64,000 nt of DNA from Flexilinea flocculi (GTDB taxonomy: Bacteria > Chloroflexota > Anaerolineae > Anaerolineales > Anaerolineaceae). How positions within the stretch are numbered: the stretch's first letter is position 1; every line of letters begins with the position of its first letter. Location of the stretch: NCBI RefSeq assembly GCF_001192795.1, contig NZ_DF968181.1, positions 1,169,101 to 1,233,100 on the forward strand, given 5' to 3'. The notes beneath the pieces are model-generated. The model searched no databases and was not told the origin of the DNA. It worked only from the letters and a program-made list of their open reading frames with translations. Of the stretch, positions 595 to 46,743 are shown piece after piece. Position numbers and translations under genes: made by a program.

Positions 595-728
595 TGTCCT
601 TGCGAGGAGGGTATAAACCCGACGAAGCAATCTCTTTTCGGGTGGCACATTTTACTCAATACAGCGTGGAGATTACCACGCCCCTGCGGGGCTCGCAATG
701 ACAAAAGTTGTTTGGCTCGCAATGACAG
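595..728. repeat. Family B palindromic repeat (copy 1)
   Basis: It starts TGTCCTTGCGAGGAGGG, continues through GACGAAGCAATCTC and GGAGATTACCACG, and ends twice with CTCGCAATGACA (to about 702 and about 728). The ends and the inner GAAGCAATCT/AGATT blocks are inverted repeats. This repeat type (TCATTGCGAGG...GAAGCAATCT) is, from memory, common in unrelated bacterial genomes. Apart from this repeat and the family A element, 411-759 holds nothing recognisable. Confidence 0.75.
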
Positions 729-3850: not shown

Positions 3851-3938
3851 CTTTCTCTGTTTATTTGAAATAAAGTCCATACTTCATTCGCTGTCTATTA
3901 ATTGATTCGATATAATGGTTTAGAATTCGAATTATCAT

Positions 3939-4062
3939 CAGCAATTCGTTATATGGGAAGGATTCTTTGTTGTTGTGCTGTTTTTGCGTTTTGCGCAAAA
4001 ACAGCACAACAACAAAATTTTCCCTCTTCATTTGTATAGCAAGCCGATATTTCGAATCGCTG
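3939..4062. repeat. Family A palindromic element, well preserved
   Basis: Terminal repeats are CAGCAATTCGTTATAT (3939-3954) and ATATTTCGAATCGCTG (4047-4062). The perfect 23-bp stem pairs 3966-3988 with 3994-4016 around the loop TTTTG. Arm core is GTTGTTGTGCTGTTTTTGCG. It lies just upstream of the split diguanylate cyclase. Confidence 0.9.
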
Positions 4063-7504: not shown

Positions 7505-8194
7505 ATGGAAGATAAACCGTCTCTGGTAGAAATAAAAACTCCAACCACAAGGATTGCATGGGTTGATACAGCAAGAGTATTTGCAATATTTTGTGTTGTG
7601 CTCTGTCATGCTGTGGAGACTGTTTATCAGTTCGATATTGATTTTATTTCTCGCTTGACAATGAAATCTCGAGTATTTATGTTTGTATGTTTTACAATAA
7701 GTCGATTGGGTGTCCCCTTTTTCTTGTTTATTACAGGATTTTTACTCCTTGATCGGATATATACACCAGAACAAAGCATGATATTCTGGAAAAAGAATTG
7801 GATCCGACTTTTAATTACTGTAGAAATTTGGACTGTCTTGTATGCATTATTTCTTTGGATTTTCCAGGAACAACCATTCAATTGGATTAATGTTGTCAAA
7901 CAATTGACCTTTATAAAAAGCGTCCCTTTGAGCCACATGTGGTATATTCCGATGATCATTGGTATGTATATATTTATCCCATTGGTGGCTAACATGCTTC
8001 ATTTGACAGATGCCCGTGTGCTTATTTTCCCACTGGTTATTGTTTTTATATTGTCTTTTTTATACCCTTCAATCAATGTATACAACAAAATTATGGGGCA
8101 TGAATCGATTAAGACTGTGTTATCAATTGAATTTAGTGGTGGAATTTATGGATTCTATTTGATAAGCGGTGATTATGCAACCCTTTTTCTGTAA
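7505..8194 (+). pseudogene. Acyltransferase-3 family protein, 5' fragment cut by IS256
   Basis: N-terminal 222 codons of a membrane acyltransferase (acyltransferase 3/OafA-like), which moves acyl groups onto cell-surface sugars. Visible features are IAWVDTARVFAIFCVVLCHAVET with the early His, ISRLGVPFFLFITGFLLL, and HMWYIPMIIGMYIFIPLV. ATG 7505 has AAGGAGAG at 7489-7496. Native sequence ends at base 8170; the last eight codons come from the IS and end in a stop at its inverted repeat. The remainder is at 9485-9907. Joining the two after removing one target duplicate gives an uninterrupted 362-residue protein (...LISG then YLVRKN). Confidence 0.85.
8163..8170. repeat. IS256 target-site duplication, left copy
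   Basis: TAAGCGGT immediately before the IS, repeated at 9477-9484 immediately after it. Eight bases is the usual duplication for IS256-family elements. Confidence 0.9.
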
Positions 8195-9476
8195 ATTAGA
8201 GTCTGAAATATCCATAGATCTTTAAGAATTCATAAACTTGCCAGTACAAAAATGTTTTCCGATCTGCCATTCTTCGCAGGTCTCCATCAGTAATGCCGAG
8301 ACCAACCTGAGACAAGAAGCTTGATTTGGAAACACACCAACCACTCTTGTCCGTCTGCGAATCTCTTTATTAATCCTCTCCAGACTATTGGTTGTTCGTA
8401 TCGTTCTTCGATGTTCCAATGGAAAATCAAAAACCAAAAAACCCTCAAAAAGGTTATTTTCGAGCCAAGATGAAAGCCGCGGAGCAGAAATAGCATACTT
8501 CTGGATGGCGCTCTGCAAGAGCTCTTCTGCTGTCTTTCGATCAGGAGCATTAAATATGGCTCTGATGTCTGCTGCCACTTCCAATCTCATCGATTGTCTG
8601 GGCAGATAAGCTCCGGCATTCTGTTGCAGATGGAACTGACACCGTTGCCAGGGAATACCGCCAAAAACTGCTCTTCTGGCTGCCCCTAGACCTTCATGGT
8701 CATCACTGATAATCAGCTTTATTCCGTGTAACCCTCGCTCTTTTAGACTCTTTAAAAATGCTTTCCAATGTGTTTCATGCTCACTAAGCGAAACTGAAAC
8801 CCCAAGTATTTGCCGTTCGCCTTCTGGCGTAATGCCAGAGGCCACCAAAACCGCTGCATCTCTTACTTGTCCTGCTTCACGAATCTTCTCATATCGGGCA
8901 TCCACAAAGAGATAGCTGATCTCTCCTAATGGCCTTTCACGCCATTCTTGCAGTACTTCGTCCAATTGCGCTGTTGCCCGGCTGACTTGTGTGGCTGAGA
9001 CCTCAATCCCACAAAGCTGTTCCGTAATGGTTTTTACCTTCCGAGTCGATACTCCCTGTACATACATTTCAGCCAGTGTGATCGTAAGGGCTCTTTCACT
9101 TCGCAGTCCCTTTTCCAGAGCACTGGGATAAAAACCACCCTCTCTAACCTGTGGAACTGCAAAGGTAATGTTTCCTATCCTGGTCTGTATCGTCTTCGGT
9201 TTGAAACCATTTGCATGTCCCTTGCGATCCTTTGTGCGTTCGTACTGTTCAGCTTGTAAGTACCTTGATCTTTCTACTTGCATGGCGTTATTTATCAGCA
9301 CTCGCATCATTTCTGGAATTGCTTCCAATCCTTTTTCCGCTATTTCCTCTGCAAAGGTATAATTATTTGGGTGAGTCATTTCTAGTCTCCTTTTATGGTT
9401 TGGTTACTATAAGGATACTTCTGACTCACCTCTTTTGTTAAGGTTCTTTATTTTACAGAAAATATGTTACACCAAC
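8171..9476 (-). mobile_element. IS256-family insertion sequence, copy 1 (1306 bp)
   Basis: It starts GATTATGCAACCC and ends TTACACCAAC. The reverse complement of the right end (GTTGGTGTAACATATTTTC) aligns with the left end over about 28 bp, sharing the core TTTTCTGTAAA. It contains one transposase gene on the minus strand, is bounded by an 8-bp direct duplication, and appears base-for-base the same as the copy at 33851-35156. Confidence 0.95.
8222..9379 (-). CDS. IS256-family transposase
   Basis: A 385-residue Mutator/IS256 transposase. The acidic catalytic residues are D160 in YLFVDARYEK, D226 in LIISDDHEGLGAARRAVFG and E334 in TTNSLERINKEIRRR. The CQFHLQQNA block after the second Asp is also typical. 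The full length and open frame suggest it is active. The gene reads opposite to the acyltransferase it interrupts. ATG is preceded by GGAGACTAGAA on the minus strand. Confidence 0.95.
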   Translation of the reverse strand: MTHPNNYTFAEEIAEKGLEAIPEMMRVLINNAMQVERSRYLQAEQYERTKDRKGHANGFKPKTIQTRIGNITFAVPQVREGGFYPSALEKGLRSERALTITLAEMYVQGVSTRKVKTITEQLCGIEVSATQVSRATAQLDEVLQEWRERPLGEISYLFVDARYEKIREAGQVRDAAVLVASGITPEGERQILGVSVSLSEHETHWKAFLKSLKERGLHGIKLIISDDHEGLGAARRAVFGGIPWQRCQFHLQQNAGAYLPRQSMRLEVAADIRAIFNAPDRKTAEELLQSAIQKYAISAPRLSSWLENNLFEGFLVFDFPLEHRRTIRTTNSLERINKEIRRRTRVVGVFPNQASCLRLVSALLMETCEEWQIGKHFCTGKFMNS

Positions 9477-11461: not shown

Positions 11462-11778
11462 CAGCGATTCGAAATATGAGAAGGATTTATTTTTGTTGTG
11501 ATGTTGTTACACGAAGCGCAAAAAAATTATGTGATGAATGATTCATATAGCGATCTGTCATTGCGAGGAGGACGATAGCATGACGTGGCTATCTGTTCCC
11601 ACTTTTGACAGGAGATTGCTTCGCCCCTCGAGGTTGTAACACTGGCAGGTTTCATCCATTTCATTTGACTTGTTATCAAATAATTTCATATAGATCATCA
11701 TTCATTAAGGTAAAAGTCTTTAAACATTTTTGATTTTTTACTGTTTGTTTCTCCTAATTCTCATATTTAGAATTGCTG
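11462..11778. repeat. Family A element interrupted by a family B repeat
   Basis: The left terminal repeat CAGCGATTCGAAATAT (11462-11477) and a worn hairpin arm come first. A family B copy follows, then a stretch with TTTCATTTGACTTG and AAGGTAAAAGTCTTT, and finally the right terminal repeat ATATTTAGAATTGCTG (11763-11778). The segment after B recurs in reverse orientation at about 23590-23725. It occupies most of the gap 11393-11875. Confidence 0.75.
11555..11649. repeat. Family B palindromic repeat (copy 2)
   Basis: Starts CTGTCATTGCGAGGAGGAC and runs through GGAGATTGCTTCGCCCC to an eroded end near ACTGGCAGG. It sits inside a family A element. Confidence 0.75.
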
Positions 11779-11795
11779 AGAAATGAAAAATCCTG

Positions 11796-14541: not shown

Positions 14542-14554
14542 GCAAAACAGCGCT

Positions 14555-14840
14555 TTGATATTTGCGGAAATACTTATTGTTGTGTTGTTTTTGCGCTTTG
14601 CACTGAGAATTTATATAGTACATAATATATGGATTGATCTGTCATTGTGAAGAGGGCGTTAGTCCGACGAAGCATTCTTTTTCTGCATGATTGAGGATTT
14701 TTGACTCATGTGGCAGGAGATTGCTTCGCCACTATATGGTACTAACAATGACAGGTTTTATCATTAATTAAGGTAAAAGTATTCAAAATTATTCGATAAT
14801 TTTCACTCGCTTCTCCAAATTACCATATTTCGAATTACTG
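14555..14840. repeat. Family A element interrupted by a family B repeat
   Basis: A left hairpin arm (TTGTTGTGTTGTTTTTGCGC near 14578) is followed by a family B copy, then AAGGTAAAAGTATTC and the right terminal repeat ATATTTCGAATTACTG ending at 14840. This repeats the arrangement at 11462-11778. The rest of the gap up to 15181 is AT-rich leader without a recognisable gene. Confidence 0.7.
14639..14755. repeat. Family B palindromic repeat (copy 3)
   Basis: Starts CTGTCATTGTGAAGAGGGC, contains CCGACGAAGCATTCTTTTTC and GGAGATTGCTTCGCC, and ends ACAATGACAGG. The outer ends are inverted repeats. Confidence 0.75.
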
Positions 14841-15181
14841 AAAAAAAGGTATAAAAATAAAGTAAAATTGAATTGAATACTACATTTGTATCCAAATAGC
14901 TACACAATCAGTTCATTTACGATTCATATTCTCTCAATTGATTCGAGGTTTTTCAGATTTCGAAGGGCAGGTGAAGATATATCACTTTGAAACCTGGTAA
15001 CTTCTTCAAAAGACATTATTCAGGGTTAGGTTGTTTTTATGTTCTATGTAAAAACGACAAAACTACGATTCACTTTTTCTGTATTTTGATTTACTGTAAA
15101 GCAATTCAGCCATTTTCAAAGTATTCATCAATAAAAGATTTTCAAACCAGACAGAAGATTCTGCAAAGAACGAGACAGGCT

Positions 15182-21040: not shown

Positions 21041-21114
21041 AGTAATTCCTATGAAAATAGAATTCAATTTTCATTATCGGATGTGTAATTTCTTTCATCT
21101 GCTGTTCGAAATAT
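21041..21114. repeat. 74-bp direct repeat, copy 1
   Basis: AGTAATTCCTATGAAAATAG through GCTGTTCGAAATAT. It recurs at 21228-21301 with two differences, and a family B element lies between the two copies. Confidence 0.85.
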
Positions 21115-21122
21115 TGGTTGAT

Positions 21123-21219
21123 CTGTCATTGCGAGGAGGGCATCAGCCCGACGAAGCAATCTATTTCCGGATGGGACTCTGCCCTACACGTAGCGGAGAG
21201 ATTGCCACGCAATGACAGG
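21123..21219. repeat. Family B palindromic repeat (copy 4), best preserved
   Basis: CTGTCATTGCGAGGAGGGC, then CCGACGAAGCAATCT, GAGAGATTGCCACG and GCAATGACAGG. Both the outer ends and the inner GCAATCT/AGATTGC blocks are inverted repeats. Confidence 0.85.
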
Positions 21220-21227
21220 TTCCTAAT

Positions 21228-21301
21228 AGCAATTCCTATGAATATAGAATTCAATTTTCATTATCGGATGTGTAATTTCTTTCATCTGCTGTTCGAAATA
21301 T
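21228..21301. repeat. 74-bp direct repeat, copy 2
   Basis: AGCAATTCCTATGAATATAG through GCTGTTCGAAATAT. Its end doubles as the left terminal repeat of the following family A element. Confidence 0.85.
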
Positions 21302-21410
21302 GGATTGGCTTTTCGAATAAAAAAAAAGAGAATTTGTAGTTCTAATGGTTTTACGCGAAACGCAAAACCATTAGAACTACATAGAATTATTCTCATAATT
21401 CGATTTGCTG
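21286..21410. repeat. Family A element overlapping the 3' end of a flavoprotein gene
   Basis: Terminal repeats at 21286-21301 and 21395-21410 (ATAATTCGATTTGCTG). The 21-bp stem pairs 21335-21355 with 21361-21381 with one mismatch, loop CGAAA. The stop codon of the minus-strand gene (21377-21379) lies in the right arm. Confidence 0.9.
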
Positions 21411-23589: not shown

Positions 23590-23802
23590 TGCCTCACAGC
23601 AATTCAAAATATGAAAATCAGGCGAAATGAATGTAAATTGTCTAAGAATATTTAAGACTTTTATCTTTATAAATGATGATCTATATGAAATGATTGGATA
23701 CCAAGTCAAATGGAATGGATGCAAACTGTCTTATGGGCGAAACAATCTCCTGTCACAAGTGGGAATAGATTGCTTCACCCCTGCTGGAATTGCAATGACA
23801 GA
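23590..23802. repeat. Compound A/B repeat in reverse orientation (family B copy 5)
   Basis: Read on the minus strand, this gives a family B fragment (GACAGGAGATTG part, 23726-23802), then CCATTTGACTTGGTATC, ATTTCATATAGATCATCATT, AAGATAAAAGTCTT and a family A terminal repeat near 23597. The order matches 11580-11778 closely. Confidence 0.75.
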
Positions 23803-23907
23803 TCCATCTATGAATCATTGATTATATAAATCTATGGCACGAAGTATAAAACCATAGGAATAATAATGAATTTTTTGATTTTAAAATTAATAGAAAGGTC
23901 AAATCTA

Positions 23908-33814: not shown

Positions 33815-33850
33815 TTGAATGTAGTTTTTATTAAATTTAAACAAGTTTTT
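33815..33850 (+). pseudogene. First 12 codons of the DUF1538 gene, cut off by IS256
   Basis: TTG at 33815 with AAAGGACATT upstream opens a frame reading NVVFIKFKQVF up to base 33850. The same frame resumes after the IS and one duplicate copy at 35165 as FSVLPIVILV. This identifies the original start of the gene now read from 35144. Confidence 0.7.
33843..33850. repeat. IS256 target-site duplication, left copy
   Basis: AAGTTTTT before the IS, repeated at 35157-35164 after it. Confidence 0.88.
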
Positions 33851-35156
33851 GATTATGCAACCCTTTTTCTGTAAATTAGAGTCTGAAATATCCATAGATC
33901 TTTAAGAATTCATAAACTTGCCAGTACAAAAATGTTTTCCGATCTGCCATTCTTCGCAGGTCTCCATCAGTAATGCCGAGACCAACCTGAGACAAGAAGC
34001 TTGATTTGGAAACACACCAACCACTCTTGTCCGTCTGCGAATCTCTTTATTAATCCTCTCCAGACTATTGGTTGTTCGTATCGTTCTTCGATGTTCCAAT
34101 GGAAAATCAAAAACCAAAAAACCCTCAAAAAGGTTATTTTCGAGCCAAGATGAAAGCCGCGGAGCAGAAATAGCATACTTCTGGATGGCGCTCTGCAAGA
34201 GCTCTTCTGCTGTCTTTCGATCAGGAGCATTAAATATGGCTCTGATGTCTGCTGCCACTTCCAATCTCATCGATTGTCTGGGCAGATAAGCTCCGGCATT
34301 CTGTTGCAGATGGAACTGACACCGTTGCCAGGGAATACCGCCAAAAACTGCTCTTCTGGCTGCCCCTAGACCTTCATGGTCATCACTGATAATCAGCTTT
34401 ATTCCGTGTAACCCTCGCTCTTTTAGACTCTTTAAAAATGCTTTCCAATGTGTTTCATGCTCACTAAGCGAAACTGAAACCCCAAGTATTTGCCGTTCGC
34501 CTTCTGGCGTAATGCCAGAGGCCACCAAAACCGCTGCATCTCTTACTTGTCCTGCTTCACGAATCTTCTCATATCGGGCATCCACAAAGAGATAGCTGAT
34601 CTCTCCTAATGGCCTTTCACGCCATTCTTGCAGTACTTCGTCCAATTGCGCTGTTGCCCGGCTGACTTGTGTGGCTGAGACCTCAATCCCACAAAGCTGT
34701 TCCGTAATGGTTTTTACCTTCCGAGTCGATACTCCCTGTACATACATTTCAGCCAGTGTGATCGTAAGGGCTCTTTCACTTCGCAGTCCCTTTTCCAGAG
34801 CACTGGGATAAAAACCACCCTCTCTAACCTGTGGAACTGCAAAGGTAATGTTTCCTATCCTGGTCTGTATCGTCTTCGGTTTGAAACCATTTGCATGTCC
34901 CTTGCGATCCTTTGTGCGTTCGTACTGTTCAGCTTGTAAGTACCTTGATCTTTCTACTTGCATGGCGTTATTTATCAGCACTCGCATCATTTCTGGAATT
35001 GCTTCCAATCCTTTTTCCGCTATTTCCTCTGCAAAGGTATAATTATTTGGGTGAGTCATTTCTAGTCTCCTTTTATGGTTTGGTTACTATAAGGATACTT
35101 CTGACTCACCTCTTTTGTTAAGGTTCTTTATTTTACAGAAAATATGTTACACCAAC
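33851..35156 (-). mobile_element. IS256-family insertion sequence, copy 2 (1306 bp)
   Basis: Same ends, length and apparently same sequence throughout as the copy at 8171-9476, with its own 8-bp target duplication. Two unrelated target sites with intact duplications indicate two recent, independent transpositions. Confidence 0.95.
33902..35059 (-). CDS. IS256-family transposase
   Basis: A 385-residue transposase identical in translation to that at 8222-9379, with catalytic D160, D226 and E334. It reads opposite to the interrupted DUF1538 gene. Confidence 0.95.
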   Translation of the reverse strand: MTHPNNYTFAEEIAEKGLEAIPEMMRVLINNAMQVERSRYLQAEQYERTKDRKGHANGFKPKTIQTRIGNITFAVPQVREGGFYPSALEKGLRSERALTITLAEMYVQGVSTRKVKTITEQLCGIEVSATQVSRATAQLDEVLQEWRERPLGEISYLFVDARYEKIREAGQVRDAAVLVASGITPEGERQILGVSVSLSEHETHWKAFLKSLKERGLHGIKLIISDDHEGLGAARRAVFGGIPWQRCQFHLQQNAGAYLPRQSMRLEVAADIRAIFNAPDRKTAEELLQSAIQKYAISAPRLSSWLENNLFEGFLVFDFPLEHRRTIRTTNSLERINKEIRRRTRVVGVFPNQASCLRLVSALLMETCEEWQIGKHFCTGKFMNS

Positions 35157-46601: not shown

Positions 46602-46644
46602 AATGACTCCAAATGGTTGAAAAAATATTTGATCCAATCTGCAA

Positions 46645-46743
46645 CAGCGATTCGAAATATGAGAAGGTTTTTTTTTGTTGCATTGTTTTTGCGTGAAACG
46701 TCAAAATTACTTTTTTTTTACATTTTCAAATTTCGAATTACTG
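46645..46743. repeat. Family A element with an internal deletion
   Basis: Both terminal repeats are intact (CAGCGATTCGAAATAT at 46645-46660, AAATTTCGAATTACTG at 46728-46743), but the unit is only 99 bp and the right hairpin arm has been lost to a T-rich tract. Confidence 0.75.

Follow-up and report, generated by a model that had tools for sequence, protein, structure and literature searches.

A probable chimeric MITE in Flexilinea flocculi that carries a CGTC-type REP dimer and the putative tail of a GIY-YIG nuclease gene

Few repeats in bacteria are commoner than REPs. Those of the GTAG class have a partner in RAYT, and the question of a dedicated enzyme for the CGTC repeats, which were listed from five phyla and were not associated with transposase genes, is left open in the sections available of the paper on their super-family (Di Nocera et al. 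2013, PMC3733652). The bearers named in those sections include Neisseriae, A. lipoferum and S. meliloti, TGTC and CCTC variants of the tag are allowed, and the Neisseria elements are equated with dRS3 (PMC3733652). For the RAYT systems, the available text of another study records four cases in which the 3' end of a rayt gene, together with the DNA up to the downstream REP, became part of a BIME (Nunvar et al. 2010, PMC2817692). A minisatellite lying within a MITE is known from Porphyromonas gingivalis, according to the part of that report at hand (PMC4596501). The element described here touches on all of these systems, as it appears to combine one arm of a MITE, a dimer of CGTC-type REPs with the tail of a nuclease gene, and one end of an IS.

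The window, by which we mean the whole 64,000-nucleotide stretch that was analysed (G000:C3:1169101-1233100, from the 3.51 Mb genome of Flexilinea flocculi, G000 below), contains three copies of the compound element (Table 1). The initial annotation had noticed that family A, family B and an extra segment recur in the same order at these three places, and both the pairwise alignments and the copies found across the genome bear this out. Copies 1 and 3 are 74% identical over 258 columns (11527-11781 against 23829-23594, E 9e-40), copies 1 and 2 are 76% identical over 89 columns (14760-14845 on the copy 2 side), and copies 2 and 3 are 75% identical across 81 columns. Some of the details need revision. 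Copy 2 begins at about 14548, not at 14555, and although the order of parts is indeed present in copy 3, its A-left part lies outside the span 23590-23802 originally assigned to it, at about 23836-23893; the A terminal repeat of this copy has decayed, and the orthologous copy in a congener (L054 in G010) keeps the A arm readable. The sequences CATTTGACTTG and AAGGTAAAAGTCTTT, which had been given as marks of the extra segment, are both present in copy 1, but copies 2 and 3 differ: copy 2 is without the CATTTGACTTG part and reads AAGGTAAAAGTATTC instead, and copy 3 reads AAGATAAAAGTCTTA.

Table 1. Features of the compound copies and solitary B dimers, in positions of the window
Feature	Position	Strand	Basis
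Compound copy 1 (317 bp)	11462..11778	+	ends CAGCGATTCGAAATAT / ATATTTAGAATTGCTG, alignments
Copy 1, A terminal inverted repeat and left hairpin arm	11462..11520	+	alignment with short A copies (46635-46706, 3936-4001, others)
Copy 1, putative degraded remnant of GIY-YIG nuclease gene 3' end (KDLYDE-stop and downstream DNA)	11521..11555	+	
Copy 1, module B, inverted CGTC-type REP pair	11556..11648	+	TGTCATTGCGAG ... GAGATTGCTTCGCC ... CTGGCAG
Copy 1, extra segment, inner part with CATTTGACTTG	11649..11692	+	between-copy conservation
Copy 1, putative parent-IS transposase-side end, reversed	11693..11778	+	alignment with L243 821-905
Compound copy 2	14548..14840	+	sequence, alignments
Copy 2, putative gene remnant	14605..14639	+	24/35, background level
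Copy 2, module B	14640..14754	+	sequence
Copy 2, putative parent-IS end, reversed	14760..14840	+	alignment with IS
Compound copy 3	23597..23893	-	23893 approximate (A repeat decayed); orthologue L054 in G010
Copy 3, putative parent-IS end	23597..23681	-	alignment with IS
Copy 3, module B, shortened, borders approximate	23727..23800	-	
Copy 3, putative GIY-YIG gene remnant	23801..23835	-	28/35 bases equal to compound-copy consensus
Solo B dimer, no compound around it	595..703	+	
Solo B dimer between two 80-bp direct repeats	21124..21217	+	repeats 21041-21120 and 21228-21307, 95% identical

The arrangement is not a chance pairing of neighbours, as had already been argued, and it recurs well beyond the window. 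A search of the whole genome with copy 1 returned at least 78 matches at E <= 1e-3, and at least 12 places, the query included, cover at least 250 of its 317 bases; as the best 40 of 417 candidates were scored, these copy numbers are lower bounds. When the right-hand 133 bp of another copy (L002) served as the query and the best 40 of 145 candidates were scored, there were 30 distinct matches longer than 60 bp, and subtraction of the parent IS and of three matches inside tandem arrays leaves at least 26 compound right segments in G000, 24 with B and 2 without it. The proposal of a larger unit thus stands: it occurs in both orientations and genome-wide, and was evidently multiplied as a unit. 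The compound copies are old, with 66-79% identity to copy 1 over the longer matches and 76-88% identity of the right segments among one another. One flank of the orthologous pair formed by L054 and window copy 3 is 91% identical over 1337 columns, and the alignment runs through the element into the opposite flank, so the compound predates the split of the two species. G010 has at least one full compound (best 40 of 202 candidates scored), eight other congeners have none with all candidates scored, and the element seems to have multiplied in the G000 lineage. By its right end, L054 also has about 49 extra bp (1438-1500) with a second A-type end, which is absent in window copy 3.

Family A is a MITE. 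Its end, CAGYRATTCGAAATA, is present at 730 sites of G000 when up to one mismatch is allowed, against 0 for the reversed control, and exact matches are confined to six of 61 genomes (204 in G000, 234 in G010, 26 in G003, 4 in G008, 2 in G027 and 1 in G002): a burst inside part of one genus. Among 65 pooled elements that have both ends (from several genomes, mostly short A copies), the 9-bp flanks agree at 0.525, whereas 200 shuffles averaged 0.281 and went no higher than 0.340; 9 bp is the sole length in excess, the agreement at other flank lengths from 1 to 11 bp being only 0.25-0.31. In the congener G008, whose genome has very few A ends, the perfect 9-bp duplication around one short A copy (L038 1501-1623) suggests that A was recently active there. 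No Rfam model matches the window.

G000 also contains an autonomous IS with the terminal inverted repeats of A and an equal duplication length of 9 bp. This parent IS (L243 821-2452, 1632 bp) has A-type ends, is apparently intact, is flanked on both sides by the 9-mer GCATTCTGT, and has a single ORF of 446 aa for a DDE-type transposase. The first lead to it was a weak transposase match below the cut-off (E 7e-4); the protein matches PF13808 (DDE_Tnp_1_assoc) and PF01609 (DDE_Tnp_1), both below the curated cut-offs, and NCBIfam at E <= 0.01 not at all. A single-sequence structure model reached a pLDDT of 32, and the search for a solved relative gave none, with a best E of 0.42. A search for copies of this transposase found this one alone in G000 and none in 14 other genomes, G010 included. 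The draft genome of G010 is as rich in A ends as G000, yet has no detectable copy of this transposase; there it may have been lost or left unassembled, or another one may act. Assignment of the parent IS to the ISAs1 family was rejected, as NF033564 matched in 0 of six genomes including G000. Other candidate sources of the A transposase were likewise set aside: IS256, on account of ends unlike those of A, and a DDE_Tnp_1 gene (L241) with no A-type end at all. A further DDE_Tnp_1 gene, in G010 (L242, on G010:C83), is cut by the start of its contig and has A-type ends only downstream. The window itself includes two identical stretches of 1307 bp (8170-9476 and 33850-35156), each with an IS256-family transposase gene.

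Alignment with this IS explains much of the extra segment of the compound. Likeness between the copies does extend outside the A and B cores, as the initial annotation held, but the outer part of the segment in question belongs to A's parent IS: its outer 81-86 bp align to the first 81-85 bases of the IS in all three window copies, and blastn gives 83% identity over 84 bases between the IS start and the right segment of L002. The compound evidently ends on the right in the transposase-side end of the parent IS, in reversed orientation. Of the segment in copy 1, the inner 44 bp (11649-11692) are conserved among compound copies and have no match in the parent IS. A search for target duplications around the compound unit, which had been proposed as a check, showed candidates in three of 20 copies, where the 9-bp flanks agree at 7/9 (L009), 7/9 (L002, with an outer end lying 68 bp upstream) and 8/9 (L014, read by eye), and not in the other 17, among them window copies 1 and 3 (copy 2 is outside the sample). 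With 17 of 20 copies lacking a duplication, the case for the compound's own movement is built on those three copies and on its ends.

Module B is an inverted pair, or dimer, of palindromic CGTC-type REP units that begin TGTCATTGCGAG. It has the CGTC/TGTC tag at one end and a stem beginning with AT, which places it in the CGTC class, with a 5-bp outer stem (ATTGC), a mismatch, an inner stem and a tail other than CCA; it is not, then, a canonical CGTC REP with a stem of 8-9 bp, a loop of 4-5 bp and a CCA tail, a form that the units beside the gene discussed below fit better in Azospirillum and Rhizobiaceae. The second solitary dimer of the window lies between 80-bp segments (21041-21307) that carry an A-type left end, as if tandemly duplicated. 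B units also form tandem arrays in G000, and satellite-like arrays of REP dimers were noted at L070 (G000:C3:566500-569500), L071, L072, L129 and L130, with units of about 121-197 bp; in L070, 11.8 units of 123 bp are bounded on one side by an A arm of the compound type with its gene remnant and on the other by a bare A-type end. A literature search with the string CATTGCGAG gave nothing related among the matches listed, in the parts of the records that could be seen.

One of these arrays (L072) encloses a gene whose product is a GIY-YIG nuclease of about 95 aa (PF01541, E 2e-15), and such a gene is also found inside a B cluster of G010 (L075). A conserved spacer lies to the left of B in the compound, with the 35-nt consensus AAAGATTTATATGATGAATCATTCATGGATTAATC, and when it is compared with the last codons of this gene (KDLYDE-stop) and the DNA downstream, 32 of 35 positions agree in L072 and 30 of 35 in L075. 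Three shuffled windows reached at best 21-23 of 35 and the window outside the compounds at best 23. The spacer was recovered at up to 8 edits in 39 in 18 of the 24 B-bearing compound copies; in copy 1 it has 26 of 35 bases in common with the compound-copy consensus, next to 23 of 35 for the best unrelated match in the window. From this correspondence, the spacer beside B is evidently the 3' end of the GIY-YIG gene, brought along with B. The compound would then be a chimeric MITE, made of an A arm, a nuclease/REP module and an IS end, an identification that we consider very probable.

Association of this gene with CGTC-type REPs extends far beyond Flexilinea. The closest named relatives of the protein, among the matches listed, are from Chloroflexota MAGs, several of them Anaerolineales. 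The 95-aa protein was compared with one genome per species, and the best 80 of 498 confirmed relatives, which are not a random sample, were inspected. Of these best 80 loci, 78 have a B motif with up to one mismatch no farther than 500 bp from the gene, and the density is 5.18/kb near the gene and 0.21/kb farther off (403 and 75 matches); the near rate is the higher one in 78 loci and the lower one in 0, with 2 ties. Hairpins of the form [CT]GTC + ATxyz are found within 500 bp in 77 of the 80, and the two loci without a B motif, from Bifidobacterium aquikefiri and a Fibrobacter MAG, have nearby hairpins of the CGTC type that are built on other stems. In 68 loci REPs are present on both sides, and in 53 of these the nearest two have inverted orientations around the gene; the median distance is 64 bp upstream and 48 bp downstream. 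Labels in the protein tree include Chloroflexota, Cyanobacteriota, Ignavibacteriota, Pseudomonadota, Bacteroidota, Spirochaetota, Planctomycetota, Elusimicrobiota, Omnitrophota, Thermodesulfobacteriota and several candidate phyla. This tree, which like the one used below for stem types excludes four short protein rows (L137, L149, L154, L211), separates the clade (92 rows) from a second small GIY-YIG gene (31 rows) with 100/99 support. With groups set by tree membership, none of the 30 second-clade loci has a B motif nearby and one has a hairpin, a control in which most genomes hold few B motifs anywhere; second-clade genes in the B-richer genomes (G000, G010, G037, G043, G047) are also without a B motif nearby. 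Among 16 clade loci of G000, G010 and other relatives, a B motif is near the gene in 8 and a CGTC-type hairpin in 11.

A collection of plasmids gave 34 records that match the protein, from which 16 loci were picked by hand, one or two per genus. Hairpins ([CT]GTC + ATxyz ... complement) lie within 500 bp of the gene in 11 of the 16, with 43 in 16 kb near it and 22 in 48 kb farther away, and the stems go with the lineage: CGTCATCCTCGGGCTTGACCCGAGGATCCAC in Rhizobiaceae, CGTCATCCCCGCGAAGGCGGGGATCCAG in Azospirillum lipoferum and CGTCATTCCCGCGCAGGCGGGAATC in Neisseria gonorrhoeae, where nine hairpins lie within 500 bp of the gene. Four of the other five loci have tagged palindromes beside the gene by inspection, 15 of 16 in all: Novosphingobium and Sphingobium have the CGTC tag with another stem, and a Sinorhizobium and Rhizobium tumorigenes have a CCTC tag. 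The Subdoligranulum locus showed no tagged palindrome near the gene by inspection. The N. gonorrhoeae units are taken as dRS3 on the strength of what is said of Neisseriae in the available text of PMC3733652, rather than of a comparison of letters.

Some of these loci offer occupied and unoccupied versions of a site. Azospirillum lipoferum 4B has the REPs and gene between sufB and sufC, which are adjacent in A. ramasamyi, A. oryzae and Azospirillum sp. B510, where REPs and gene are absent. At the fnrL site of Sphingobium, REP-gene-REP is present in TomTYG46 and TomTYG73 (in the latter the gene looks broken), the REP palindrome alone in TomTYG74 and TomTYG64, and neither in TomTYG72; exact insertion borders are not fixable because the intergenic DNA has diverged. 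On pSymB of S. meliloti Ak57 (L257), a full REP-gene-REP unit has, directly upstream, a REP pair with a 3' fragment of the GIY-YIG gene between its two members. This locus was also tried against Sinorhizobium C101 as a clean unoccupied site and rejected, the alignment around the site being poor, and it supports the gene fragment only.

Each gene lineage may have its own REP type. Fitting the stem type to the gene tree takes 8 changes, against a mean of 12.3 in shuffles, and with two ways of labelling 0 and 1 of 500 shuffles were as low; the test is a weak one, with 89 columns, near copies, majority-stem labels and a poorly resolved tree. Clade genes flanked mainly by stems other than ATTGC were seen at L112, L123, L111 and L109 (ATGCT, ATCCT, ATGCC and ATTCC). 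REP number may also go with the gene: a REP-flanked clade gene is present in four of six genomes with at least ten copies of TGTCATTGCGAG and in two of 31 others (Fisher p 0.003), in a count over 37 genomes with a cut-off picked post hoc and with five GIY-YIG hits of non-UvrC size outside the classification. The exceptions are G047, with 64 B motifs and no clade gene found, and G037, where 50 motifs go with a clade gene that has other stems beside it; either REPs persist after the gene is gone, or the two are not causally linked.

How the parts of the compound came together can be judged from its junctions. The initial annotation had B inserting into A and the compound then moving, that is, B entering one A element as a unit and the nested compound subsequently transposing. 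B is indeed also found alone (Table 1), the left junction coincides with the tip of A's hairpin, and REP dimers inserted in long palindromes are reported in the available sections of Di Nocera et al. (PMC3733652), yet this course of events seems unlikely to us: the right half of the A palindrome is missing and the IS end stands in its place, B did not come alone but with the 3' end of the nuclease gene, and among the 26 right-ended copies there is no uninterrupted copy from before B. Two copies without B, L015 and L250, were considered as such precursors and look like deletions instead, because L015 keeps the nuclease-gene remnant and L250 keeps the first bases of the remnant and the last bases of B. 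Since no precursor was found, we prefer recombination to plain insertion: the REP dimer and the nuclease-gene tail would have joined the A arm at the hairpin tip, with the IS end opposite. It might also be asked whether the nuclease gene acquired its 3' end from a compound copy by recombination, in which case the 'remnant' would not be gene-derived. Gene and compound are present together in both G000 and G010, which speaks for such an exchange, but many of the 80 homologues from other phyla end in a similar C-terminus (D-L-Y/F-D/E-E), probably an ancestral stretch of the coding sequence, so the direction was probably from gene to compound, and we regard the reverse as highly improbable.

The best explanation of the whole, to which we would give a probability of roughly 0.77, is a chimeric non-autonomous transposon of about 290-350 bp that was moved by an IS and carries a REP module from a nuclease system. 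The parent IS transposase would have moved both A and the compound in trans, leaving 9-bp target duplications; movement by this IS we hold with good confidence, the action in trans being deduced from the shared ends. The REP module would first have spread through its own GIY-YIG nuclease gene, for which we see about even odds, judging from the cross-phylum linkage and the occupied and unoccupied sites. In the step of which we are least certain, the nuclease might recognise the REP hairpins and help to copy or move REPs, sometimes with its own gene, as has been proposed for RAYT. RAYT itself was considered as the mobiliser of B and rejected, as PF01797 has no match in G000, G010, G003, G008 and G004 (four in G006). 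The main competitor, to which we assign somewhat less than an even chance, is that the GIY-YIG gene is not the mobiliser, so that the REPs are its homing target or a safe landing site, or a third enzyme carries both. GIY-YIG domains do occur in homing endonucleases, as the accessible text of PMC1564403 states, REPs persist in G047, and some Sphingobium strains have the REP palindrome without the gene at the same site; these points have to be set against the REPs on both sides of the gene, mostly inverted and close to it, against a stem type that tracks the gene tree beyond label shuffles, albeit on a poorly resolved tree, and against gene 3' ends swept into REP units both in S. meliloti and in the compound. 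That the link between gene and REPs is an artefact altogether, REPs being intergenic and the near windows simply richer in intergenic DNA, appears most improbable. Near and far windows were unmatched for intergenic content and the control genomes are mostly poor in B motifs, but the rates differ 24-fold within the same loci, other-clade genes in genomes with at least 11 B motifs (L126, L113, L084, L114, L115, L116, L085) have no motif nearby, and the stems vary by lineage yet remain beside the gene in Neisseria, Rhizobiaceae, Azospirillum and Planktothrix.

A wider reading, on which we are evenly divided, would make the small GIY-YIG clade the missing dedicated enzyme of CGTC REPs, in RAYT-independent REP-gene-REP systems that span phyla and whose dimers may be captured and re-mobilised by MITEs. 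It would cover REPs of the Neisseria type as well as repeats with an ATTGC stem in Chloroflexota, Cyanobacteriota, candidate phyla and others. A gene beside CGTC REPs in many phyla is a concrete enzyme candidate for a class that was reported without one. The link between this clade and CGTC REPs was not found in open-access print among the matches listed, a scope outside which preprints and most subscription journals lie, and it may already be known elsewhere. The compound by itself is a chimeric MITE, a known sort of element.

IS of the ISAs1 type have CAG ends and target duplications of 8-9 bp. The parent IS is like them in its CAG ends, in a duplication of that length and in its weak match to PF13808, but differs in having no match to NF033564 or NCBIfam. 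The B units resemble the CGTC super-family, as described in the available sections of PMC3733652, in beginning with [C/T]GTC, in stems that begin with AT and in forming inverted dimers, and units of the same build stand beside relatives of the gene in Neisseria, Azospirillum and Sinorhizobium. They depart from it in a stem of ATTGC, mismatch and inner stem where 8-9 pairs are described, in the frequency of arrays, and in their association with a GIY-YIG gene, in more phyla than the five of that paper (PMC3733652). With REP-RAYT systems, REPINs and BIMEs, to the extent covered by the accessible text of PMC2817692, the likeness lies in a small gene flanked by inverted REPs, in REPs amplified across the genome, in inverted dimers and in a gene 3' end swept into inter-REP segments; the difference is that PF01797 is absent from G000 and G010 and the protein is a GIY-YIG nuclease here, not a tyrosine (Y1) transposase. 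The minisatellite in the P. gingivalis MITE, as far as the available part of the report describes it (PMC4596501), is like L070 in being a tandem array inside a MITE, but the repeated unit of L070 is a REP dimer. Finally, both A and the compound resemble MITEs generally in being short and without an ORF, in their terminal inverted repeats, in fixed duplications of 9 bp (for the compound, visible in three of 20 copies) and in ends that are also found on an apparently intact IS of the same genome. The compound differs in combining one A end with one IS end and with the module of a second mobile system that includes the putative tail of a nuclease gene; it would thus be the product of two selfish systems recombined, a MITE that carries both REPs and the tail of their own nuclease gene.
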